Below, piece after piece: positions 2,341 to 53,932 of a stretch of DNA of 64,000 nt. The DNA is taken from the NCBI RefSeq assembly GCF_900111075.1, contig NZ_FOFZ01000001.1, positions 310,001 through 374,000 on the forward strand, in the 5' to 3' direction. Below the pieces are notes generated by a model. That model was given only the letters and a program-made list of their open reading frames with translations, made no database searches and was not told the origin of the DNA. How positions within the stretch are numbered: position 1 is the stretch's first letter; each line of letters starts with the position of its first letter. This DNA comes from Flavobacterium frigoris. Lineage in GTDB: Bacteria; Bacteroidota; Bacteroidia; Flavobacteriales; Flavobacteriaceae. Made by a program: the position numbers and the translations under genes.

Positions 2341-2374
2341 AAATGAAAAAGACCATCGTTACCGACGGTCTCTT
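2341..2374 (-). terminator. Intrinsic terminator of the ~255-nt RNA
   Basis: Hairpin with stem GACCATCG/CGACGGTC (one mismatch) and loop TTAC at 2351-2370. On the minus strand it is followed by a U-run (plus-strand A-run 2346-2350). Its loop and loop-proximal stem match those of the terminator at 2704-2736. Confidence 0.65.
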
Positions 2375-2599
2375 TCTTCAGGATAGCTGTTTAACCAAAA
2401 CCAATTTGAACAGCAGCTACCCTAAAGGGGGCAAAAGCGTTTGAGATAAACTTTGGCGGGAAACTTCGCTGGCTTCATAAACAGCTGTTGCAGTCAAGAA
2501 CAGCGTTGCCCAGGAATTCAGTATTGAAACTTCCCTTAACGAACACACTTTTTCGAGGTGCTGTTTCCAAAGTTTTATTTTTATGGCTGTAATTTAAGT
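2345..2599 (-). ncRNA. Candidate structured small RNA, about 255 nt
   Basis: No coding frame. Read on the minus strand, the segment starts about 7 nt after a TAGGTTTG (-7) box at 2606-2613 and ends in a hairpin plus U-run at 2341-2374. Complementary segments are visible: AAACTTTGG near the 5' end pairs with CCAAAGTTT about 140 nt later, and TAGCTGCTGTT pairs with AACAGCTA (3-nt bulge) just before the terminator. It does not look like RNase P RNA, tmRNA or SRP RNA. A 6S-type or flavobacterial regulatory RNA is possible. Promoter, structure and terminator together support a transcript, but the family is not recognised. Confidence 0.45.
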
Positions 2600-2605
2600 G
2601 CTAAG

Positions 2606-2649
2606 CAAACCTATCACTCTTTATTTGTTTTTGCTTACGGGTTTCCGTA
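2606..2649 (-). promoter_or_regulatory. Dyad-controlled promoter of the ~255-nt RNA
   Basis: The minus strand carries TAGGTTTG (2606-2613), a match to the Bacteroidota -7 consensus TAnnTTTG. There is no TTG at the expected -33 position. Instead a perfect dyad TACGG-GTTT-CCGTA occupies 2636-2649, leaving 22 nt to the -7 box. Placement at about -37 to -50 fits a class II activator site. The N4-spaced 5-bp half-sites suggest a NarL/LuxR-type dimer, which is inference. Confidence 0.5.
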
Positions 2650-2703
2650 CTGGGAAGTTATTTTTTGGCAATTGGGTTTCAAAAAGGAACGAAACGACGG
2701 TAA

Positions 2704-2736
2704 CAAAAAAGGCTATCGTTACCGATAGCCCTTTTT
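2704..2736 (-). terminator. Intrinsic terminator of the ~100-nt RNA
   Basis: Perfect 8-bp stem GGCTATCG/CGATAGCC with loop TTAC at 2711-2730, flanked by an A-run (2705-2710) and a T-run (2732-2737). It can therefore end transcription on either strand. The nearest identifiable transcript is on the minus strand. Confidence 0.7.
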
Positions 2737-2804
2737 TCGCTTTACATATAAATCCAAAAAACCTACAAGAATAATGAACGCTGTAAAGCAATACCCTTTG
2801 TTAT
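2704..2804 (-). ncRNA. Candidate small RNA, about 100 nt
   Basis: Predicted minus-strand transcript from just downstream of a TATGTTTG box (2811-2818) to the strong terminator at 2704-2736. It has no convincing coding frame. A TTTACAG...CTTTAC-like complementarity is visible inside. It sits immediately upstream of the ~255-nt RNA on the same strand, with the same promoter layout and a related terminator, so the two look like paralogous or co-regulated RNAs. Boundaries are approximate. Confidence 0.4.
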
Positions 2805-2810
2805 TCATGA

Positions 2811-2854
2811 CAAACATACGAGACGTTATTGAGCTTTCCTTACGGTTTCCCGTA
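2811..2854 (-). promoter_or_regulatory. Dyad-controlled promoter of the ~100-nt RNA
   Basis: The minus-strand -7 box TATGTTTG lies at 2811-2818. The dyad TTACGG-TTTC-CCGTAA is at 2840-2855, with its TACGG-N4-CCGTA core at 2841-2854. The gap between box and core is 22 nt, identical to the neighbouring promoter at 2606-2649. There is no -33 TTG element. Confidence 0.5.
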
Positions 2855-3157
2855 AAAGGGTGTTTTTTTTAAAAATATATATATATTGGATTACTTAAAT
2901 CTACAATAGTACGTATCTGAATTGTAAAGTAACGGCTATTAATTAAGCTGTACAATACCCACTTTTAGTGATATTTTGGATACGAGGTATTTTTATAAAT
3001 CATCTGAAACAAAAAGGAGTGGAATAGTTTTCTGGAAAACTTAAGTTAAAGGCTGTGGTGTAATGCTCGTCCTTTTTAGGCTTGTTATAAAAGATTTCGA
3101 GATTAATAACGGTAATAAAGTAGCGGCCGGTTCTAACGGATATTAACTCGAGTTGCG

Positions 3158-4717: not shown

Positions 4718-4791
4718 CTCCCTCTCTTGGGCTCGAACCAAGGACCCTCTGATTAACAGTCAGATGCTCTAACCAACTGAGCTAAGAAGGA
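4718..4791 (-). tRNA. tRNA-Asn (anticodon GTT)
   Basis: The minus strand folds into a complete cloverleaf. The 7-bp acceptor stem is TCCTTCT/AGAGGGA with a G discriminator. The D arm contains AGCTCAGTTGGTTAGAGC. The anticodon arm is TCTGA-CTGTTAA-TCAGA, giving anticodon GTT. The T arm is CTTGG-TTCGAGC-CCAAG. CCA is not encoded. The terminator hairpin follows 12 nt later. Confidence 0.95.
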
Positions 4792-23508: not shown

Positions 23509-23785
23509 GGCATGCCCCAGCTTCCACTCCGTTACAGCAGCGTCGCGCTGTACGTTGCAATCTTTTATTTCGCTACGCTGCATAAAAGGATTTCCACTTC
23601 CATCCCTCATGCGAGACTGTTGTAATAATTACGATTGTTTTTTAGAATATTTGAAAAAAAAAGAACTATGCAATTGAAGGCTTAATGAGGTGAAACCTGG
23701 GCTTAAACGGAGGTTTTGCCGCAGTAGAGTTTAATACATGCATCTTTTTAATCTTGTTTTGATTTAGCCCAAAACATTTCAATCC
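23509..23785. repeat. Flavobacterial GC-richer intergenic repeat (about 23509-23630)
   Basis: The segment opens GGGCATGCCCC and contains several small inverted repeats (CGTCGCGCTGTACG, TTTCGCTACGCTGCATAAAA). It ends ATCCCTCATGCGAGACTGTT. It is clearly more GC-rich than its surroundings and resembles dispersed repeat elements of Flavobacterium genomes. The frames through it are not convincing genes. The following ~150 bp hold nothing recognised. Confidence 0.45.
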
Positions 23786-53836: not shown

Positions 53837-53932
53837 AGGAGCTATTTCCCGTCATCCGCTATATCTTTTATGGCCTCGTTAAAAAACGAGGCCATAAAAG
53901 GATGCCGCTACTACCGGGGCTAGGAAATTGCA
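53837..53932. repeat. Flavobacterial palindromic intergenic element
   Basis: A 15-bp perfect inverted pair TTTTATGGCCTCGTT (53866-53880) and AACGAGGCCATAAAA (53885-53899) with a 4-nt AAAA loop. The outer conserved words are AGGAGCTATTTCCCG on the left and GGATGCCGCTACTACCGGGG CTAGG on the right. I recognise this as a REP-like repeat dispersed in Flavobacterium genomes. Confidence 0.65.

Follow-up and report, generated by a model that had tools for sequence, protein, structure and literature searches.

Several bacterial small RNAs (sRNAs) and antisense RNAs are driven by activators. OmrA and OmrB are controlled by OmpR, and RcsB activates the sRNA RprA. Antisense control of phage regulators is represented by the CII-driven anti-cro transcript of lambda and by Sar of P22. 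OOP RNA and CII are linked in excerpts of the literature on phage antisense control. OmrA and OmrB are described as tandem sibling sRNAs of enterobacteria in the accessible part of PMC12692685, and the Flavobacterium psychrophilum sRNA Rfp18 affects metalloprotease mRNAs, with predicted pairing through a stem-loop, according to the accessible part of PMC9723704.

Here, we analysed a 64,000-nt stretch of the Flavobacterium frigoris genome (the window), in which an earlier sequence-only reading had proposed two tandem sRNAs on the minus strand, units A and B, switched on by one dimeric activator (Table 1). Among the matches listed by a text search, which is a weak tool for sequence and had subscription papers outside its range, the dyad and these RNAs are apparently undescribed.

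Table 1. Features of the locus. RNA ends are predicted from the box and the T-run, with starts at 2806 (unit A) and 2601 (unit B).
Feature	Position	Strand	Basis or remark
Unit A dyad, TACGG-N4-CCGTA, TACGGGAAACCGTA	2841-2854	-	Probable response-regulator site, -48 to -35; genus-wide conservation
Unit A -7 box (sigma-A type), TATGTTTG	2811-2818	-	Consensus TAnnTTTG from PMC9723704 (accessible part)
Unit A, predicted noncoding RNA of ~102 nt (D2 + D3)	2705-2806	-	Fold z -5.1; model R2 91.7 bits
Unit A D2 hairpin, GCUUUACAGC ... GUAAAGC	2736-2789	-	Fold, alignment
Unit A intrinsic terminator, loop GUAA	2705-2731	-	Fold
Unit B dyad, TACGGAAACCCGTA	2636-2649	-	-48 to -35
Unit B -7 box, TAGGTTTG	2606-2613	-	Pattern match
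Unit B, predicted noncoding RNA of ~256 nt (D1 + D2 + D3)	2346-2601	-	Fold z -5.1; homologues in 5 other genomes of 398
Unit B D1, long hairpin antisense to decayed xre	2448-2575	-	Sequence comparison, fold
Unit B D2 hairpin; loop GGUUUUGGUUAA (2390-2402) invariant in six unit-B-type RNAs	2376-2427	-	Fold, alignment
Unit B intrinsic terminator, loop GUAA	2346-2372	-	Fold
xre (HTH_3) gene relic	2448-2575	+	No frame common to relics; internal deletion as in the other five RNA-type loci
tRNA-Asn	4718-4791	-	2.1 kb from D1; same tRNA as at 4/7 xre loci
Flavo-1 RNAs (RF01705), three	2167-2311; 23537-23617; 53841-53925	+; -; -	Rfam; the first abuts unit B

Promoter type and candidate activator

Both units share the geometry that had been described for them: a TACGG-N4-CCGTA dyad is followed after exactly 22 nt by a TAnnTTTG box, and no TTG lies between dyad and box in unit A or unit B. 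This -7 box consensus has been placed at -12 to -5 in F. psychrophilum (PMC9723704, accessible part). With the box set at these positions the dyad occupies -48 to -35. This puts the dyad centre at -41.5 and not at about -43, where the activator had been put earlier. When spacings of 20-24 nt were allowed, the window's own genome contained three exact sites, all at 22 nt, and the third sits beyond histidine kinase and response regulator genes. Two other genomes also have both units, G270 (locus L025) and G019 (L026). The unit B dyad is gone in G270; in G019 half of it is left and the unit A box is degenerate (TACATTTA). Both promoters are therefore intact in one of the three two-unit genomes, the window's. 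The proposed co-regulation of A and B is thus not conserved. The single-unit RNAs of G224, G291 and G370 have dyad, N22 and box intact in all three cases. As expected of a response-regulator-activated sRNA, each noncoding unit in the window is preceded by its own predicted promoter, which includes a conserved site of the regulator type.

A genome-wide search for the dyad and box, which had been put forward as a check on whether their spacing is random, was run and gave spacing far from random. The stricter pattern TTACGG-N4-CCGTAA-N21-TAnnTTTG was found in 98 of 199 genomes of the genus and in 50 of 249 genomes of the family (48 of 235 genera), while the pattern read backwards gave 0 in both sets. 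A search of 61 genomes with a shorter dyad and a free gap of 12-32 nt returned 100 matches, with gaps of 22 nt (85), 21 nt (6), 23 nt (6) and 19, 28 and 31 nt (one each); its reversed control gave a single match, in G028. Among 77 fetched sites, no TTG started at -39 to -32 and one started at -31; the absence at -39 to -32 is mostly dictated by the dyad letters, and every position specified in the search pattern is necessarily invariant. In addition, T prevailed at -50, G at -32 and A at -30, and an A/T tract lay around -64 to -57. As far as sequence comparison goes, these results indicate that the dyad-box geometry is a promoter type of the genus and the family, beyond chance.

An ORF of at least 40 aa started within 300 nt at 71 of the 77 distinct sites (63 loci), at a median of 30 nt after the box. 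The six sites without such an ORF include both window units and two xre-antisense sites (L013 and L088). The regulon is therefore mainly one of proteins, and the window RNAs are noncoding exceptions. Proteins of about 100 aa with a common stretch like YVKEYIKHYKKSLKGN and KYPYM recur 3' of dyad promoters (L003 1590-1892, L079, L085, L094, L105, L107 and L108), often near the response regulator; the L003 protein, the only one scanned, had no Pfam match above the cut-off. Judged by eye, other genes 3' of dyad promoters (L015, L073, L089, L093, L096, L106 and L108) look restriction-, Mrr- or KTSC-like, a hint that the regulon may concern defence or mobile DNA. We also noted by eye a sub-class (L081 and L099) that combines TTACGGATTTCCGTAAT, a similar spacer and TATGTTTG, in G058, G123, G158, G171 and G193; G058 and G171 had no match to the response regulator.

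The regulator gene was found in 111 of 199 genus genomes (E <= 1e-20). Among the 98 site-bearing genomes, 92 have it, which gives an odds ratio of 66 and a p value of 2e-29 in a statistic that ignores phylogeny; six site-bearing genomes had no regulator match (58, 68, 94, 164, 171 and 173), and 19 genomes had the regulator and no exact site. Furthermore, 27 of 30 fetched regulator loci contained the dyad. It lies no more than 500 nt 3' of the gene in 26 of these loci and at 539 nt in L133; L117, L128 and L135 had none. All six genomes with a unit-B-type RNA (RNA-type) and eight of the nine with an intact xre homologue (xre-type, see below) carry the regulator, G002 being the one without. The best full-length fold matches of its structure model (pLDDT 76, pTM 0.62) were RcsB, spr1814, VraR and EvgA, and RcsB bound to the rprA promoter (6zj2) was among the structure matches. 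The Pfam Response_reg score was 19.9 bits, under the cut-off of 30.2, and a LuxR-type (GerE) Pfam match was absent at E 0.01. By its modelled fold, the protein would have a receiver domain and a LuxR-type four-helix HTH; by sequence the assignment is weaker. The exact spacing, the centre at -41.5 and the co-occurrence and adjacency of the regulator together argue strongly, by comparison, for one dimeric activator, as had been suggested. A NarL/FixJ-like response regulator probably activates the dyad promoters, to which it would bind, and both the promoter code and its link to this regulator have good computational support.

Anatomy and xre ancestry of the RNAs

The hairpin and terminator of the two units align, and a two-type model scores them at 91.7 and 78.3 bits (both are in its alignment), which bears out the paralogy claimed before. 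Unit A is a partial paralogue that comprises only the 3' part (D2 + D3) of unit B. The related terminators are both present and fold as had been stated, but the loop given as TTAC was a plus-strand reading, and the minus-strand RNA has GUAA; each unit is thus predicted to end in a Rho-independent terminator. Likewise, the region is free of coding frames in the sense that it has no long ORF (the largest is 58 aa), but a decayed xre HTH gene occupies ~2448-2575 on the plus strand. On the RNA strand, no ATG-started ORF of ~20 codons was found in the six unit-B-type RNAs. The fold z-score of the L027 RNA was -3.5.

Stem conservation, a check proposed earlier, was seen in D2 and D3: across nine D2-D3 sequences, 92.9% of cells pair and seven pairs are changed on both sides. 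Pairing was 84% in the main D2 helix and 99% in D3, and it fell to 36-61% when the structure was slid along the alignment. D1 pairs at 92.4%, with five pairs changed on both sides, but the antisense of intact xre already pairs in 7-10 of 10 positions in P2 and 5-8 of 8 in P1. The D1 pairing is therefore largely inherited, and D1 covariation was dropped as a sign of RNA selection. The suggested Rfam comparison gave no match inside 2341-2855 at gathering thresholds.

A DNA search of 398 genomes with unit B gave close matches in G270 and G019, intermediate matches in G224, G291 and G370 and a tail of short matches, 14 genomes in total including the own one. The D1 model (R1) matched 15 of 398 genomes at E up to 1.4e-4, six of the RNA type and nine of a longer, intact xre type; this search used strict filters that lose weak matches, and four matches at E 0.0065-0.0078 lay outside the 15. 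By the same filtered count, the unit-B-type RNA is rare (6/398). The RNA pattern also matched in Flavobacterium sp. ACAM 123. The D2-D3 model (R2) found nothing better than E 0.06 in xre loci, and weak R2 matches elsewhere (L199-L204) were set aside, as they resembled unrelated terminators where the shown stretch had one.

In other genomes, the complement of D1 encodes an intact Xre/HTH_3 protein. In the alignment of the 15 D1 sequences, one gap common to the six RNA-type rows sets them apart from the nine xre rows. D1 of the single-unit RNAs measures 124-125 nt, versus 166 nt in the xre type, a difference of 41-42 nt. The common gap deletes QISRIERG, which we take to be the recognition helix of Xre, and no reading frame is shared by all six relics.

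In intact xre copies, a promoter of this type at the 3' end of the gene points in the antisense direction, with at least 12 of 16 letters in 10 of 11 close copies. Four are perfect (16/16) and lie 7-16 nt beyond the stop codon; four more, three with 14 matching letters and one with 12, lie 14-21 nt beyond the stop; two have a displaced partial site (13/16) ~106 nt away; and the remaining close copy has none. By comparison, 53 of 4000 random stretches reached at least 12/16, in a control that used 230-nt stretches of 18 fetched loci with the real sites included. Of six less close xre genes, that of G170 scored 13/16 at 8 nt beyond the gene, and G025, G168, G180, G156 (score 9) and G177 (8) were at noise level; G017, G166 and G001 were left out of this scoring.

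Two further observations were not counted. The left half of the dyad is decayed in G002, a genome that lacks the regulator, yet G299, G285 and G227 possess the regulator and show such decay too; the decay in G002 is therefore not discriminating and was dropped as support. The duplex energy of unit B with the intact xre of L035 (-126 kcal/mol, where 100 mononucleotide shuffles reached -99 at best) only restates their homology.

In the window, xre is decayed, so unit B does not lie opposite a functional gene; xre-type loci have an open xre frame, with the promoter directed against it. Sequence homology strongly supports the descent of unit B from the antisense of a mobile-element repressor gene. 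The sequence-only reading, whose paralogy and single activator stand in the comparative data, did not foresee the protein regulon, unit A as a 3' part, or the main domain of unit B as the antisense of a lost mobile-element repressor.

Genomic setting and present role

An integrase homologue precedes xre in six of the seven xre loci with long flanks, and Pfam identifies a tyrosine integrase in L182 and L185. In L182, xre is followed by AAA_24, DUF3871 and a VapE-like protein, and relatives of the AAA_24 and DUF3871 proteins occur in L181, L183, L184, L185 and L188. A tRNA-Asn lies ~2.0-2.6 kb from xre in four of the seven loci (G368, G299, G146:C22 and G285), with the integrase gene between; G007 has a tRNA-Met at its xre locus, and no tRNA was found in the fetched stretches of the G227 and G146:C20 loci. 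The xre loci thus show the integrase and replication module at a tRNA that mark an integrative element, and the window does not: its locus (L180) gave no integrase match among the listed ORFs within 6 kb.

The location is partly shared, in that the window has a neighbour 2.3 kb from D1, presumably RseP-like, as at the xre loci. This gene and tRNA-Asn stand beside the RNA in two of six RNA loci and beside xre in four of seven. In G291 both are ~4.3-4.5 kb away; in the other four of the six RNA loci neither was seen within the fetched stretches. In G370, an integrase homologue lies 8.8 kb from the RNA. The 3' end of tRNA-Asn was not found a second time in the window or in 13 scanned stretches. 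Nearly all listed ORFs from the integrase onward are co-oriented with the antisense promoter, and those reading the opposite way are xre and, in three loci, an ORF of 80-81 aa. Activation could therefore silence xre and also read into the element. By eye, similar copies of CAATACCCACTTTTAGTGATAT (window 2953-2974, plus strand) occur beside RNA- or xre-type loci in L027, L030, L041, L042, L044, L146 and L150, suggesting a second regulatory element.

The invariant D2 loop points to a possible target. Its complement, TTAACCAAAACC, occurred 25 times in the six RNA-type genomes versus 76 times for the reversed control, and is thus the rarer of the two. Six occurrences are the RNA loci themselves, seven lie 32-43 nt upstream of the starts of 316-aa M43 metalloproteases, and the remaining 12 are scattered; in G224, two of these fall within the leaders of other genes. 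The M43-leader matches were found in five of six RNA-type genomes, the exact match being absent in G270; the M43 identity comes from Pfam for one protease and from the HE[VI]GHW motif for the others. Complementarity between the D2 loop and the M43 leader extends over 12-17 nt, with 17 nt in the window's genome, by eye. Tandem M43 paralogues carry imperfect versions of TTAACCAAAACC, so common descent explains part of the match, and we regard the M43 leaders as a lead to a trans target. Loci L231-L235 contain tandem arrays of M43 genes, most of which have a common leader GTTATAnAATTG...TTAACCAAAA; TTTTATAAC is present in some of the leaders as well, and these could form a hairpin.

These observations fit a model in which units A and B would be transcribed by sigma-A polymerase from promoters without a -33 element, a dimeric NarL/FixJ-like response regulator at -41.5 replacing that element (class II activation). 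The ancestor would have been an antisense RNA across the xre gene of a tRNA-Asn-integrating element, switched on by a host two-component system; silencing of xre, and perhaps read-through into element genes, would couple the element to a host signal. In the window lineage, a deletion of ~42 nt and frame damage may have destroyed xre, and the integrase would have vanished. The antisense transcript would have been retained, closed by the D2 hairpin and D3 terminator that are not seen in xre loci, and a duplication would have given the short unit A. The retained RNAs would most likely base-pair in trans through the D2 loop GGUUUUGGUUAA, with the M43 leaders as candidate target. We consider this explanation as a whole, an antisense-derived RNA pair with sigma-A promoters, NarL/FixJ-like activation and trans action via the D2 loop, moderately probable. 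The wider proposal is tentative and open to real doubt: that a host two-component system controls integrative elements via an antisense RNA through xre, from a promoter at the 3' end of the gene, and that at least one lineage domesticated this anti-repressor RNA into a trans-acting sRNA pair with metalloprotease mRNA targets after the repressor died.

Whether the RNAs still act is the point on which the main alternative turns. The promoters may still be recognised while the RNAs are a decaying, functionless remnant of the element's antisense module, conserved since the lineage is young. This would fit the rarity of the RNA, the decay of the unit B dyad in two of the three two-unit genomes and the state of xre, itself a relic. 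It would also fit the window and its two close relatives, in which D1 (82-90% identity) and D2 (84-89%) show a weak contrast because the flanks are 56-89% identical. In the single-unit trio (L027, L028 and L030), however, D1 and D2 are 82-89% identical over the alignment length versus 48-60% in the flanks, and these three genomes all keep the exact promoter. The D2 and D3 stems also stay paired through double changes, and D2-D3 is absent from xre loci, which suggests a gain. We therefore think a mere remnant rather unlikely; comparison of the sequences makes a present function of the RNAs likely.

The identity of the activator and the nature of the locus can be weighed in the same way. The FNR layout is TTGAT-N4-ATCAA at -41.5, and TAC...GTA palindromes suit NarL/FixJ-type domains. 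It is conceivable, but improbable in our judgement, that the dyad is bound by another regulator, either one of the CRP/FNR type that recognises 5-4-5 half sites at -41.5 or a dimer resembling TetR. The dyad geometry equals the FNR layout; the two-component genes could be one conserved target locus, which would give the same adjacency of gene and site; and six site-bearing genomes lack a match to the response regulator. On the other hand, the TAC...GTA palindrome fits a NarL/FixJ-type domain, and the presence of the regulator gene tracks the sites, a co-occurrence computed for this gene only; CRP/FNR is not preferred because the response regulator is adjacent to and co-occurs with the sites. 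A small protein from the truncated xre, still encoded on the plus strand with the minus-strand promoter making its antisense RNA, is very unlikely: L027 retains an in-frame product of 44 aa and L028 a product of 56 aa that begins alike, but the six RNA-type loci share no frame and the presumed recognition helix is deleted. Hardly credible is membership of the pair in a dispersed repeat such as the adjoining Flavo-1 (2167-2311), rather than a regulated RNA gene. Flavo-1-like sequence was seen by eye beside unit B in L025 and L028 too, but the own genome has just two R2 matches below E 1e-4, both of them these units, and one D1-model match, and Rfam is silent inside the locus. One or two copies per genome disfavour a repeat, and a regulated, antisense-derived RNA pair remains the preferred reading.

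Comparison with known systems

If this reading is true, a phylum with poorly mapped gene control would gain a defined promoter code (TTACGG-N4-CCGTAA at -41.5) together with its probable regulator, and a regulon would be predicted in dozens of genomes. The reading would also offer a traceable birth of an sRNA, a cis-antisense RNA that outlived the gene it silenced, and a direct connection by which host sensing could induce mobile elements.

Flavo-1 (RF01705), although it adjoins the pair in the window, differs in sequence, strand and place, and has no match inside it. Like OmrA/OmrB, the two units are adjacent paralogues that end in intrinsic terminators and are probably controlled by the same response regulator; the phylum and the regulator family are different and there is no known sequence relation, and in the present case one paralogue, unit A, is truncated and the ancestor would be an antisense RNA. 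As with RprA, a NarL/FixJ-type response regulator would act on an sRNA promoter, but the dyad differs in sequence and geometry, and the RNAs were compared through Rfam only. Rfp18, compared by its description in the accessible part of PMC9723704, is likewise a flavobacterial sRNA connected with metalloprotease mRNAs and stem-loop pairing; it is described there as conserved outside its species, whereas the window RNA occurs in 6 of 398 genomes. In lambda and P22, too, an activator-driven antisense transcript crosses a Cro/C1-type regulator gene of an integrated element; here, by contrast, a two-component regulator of the host is the probable activator, and the target gene has been lost from the window.
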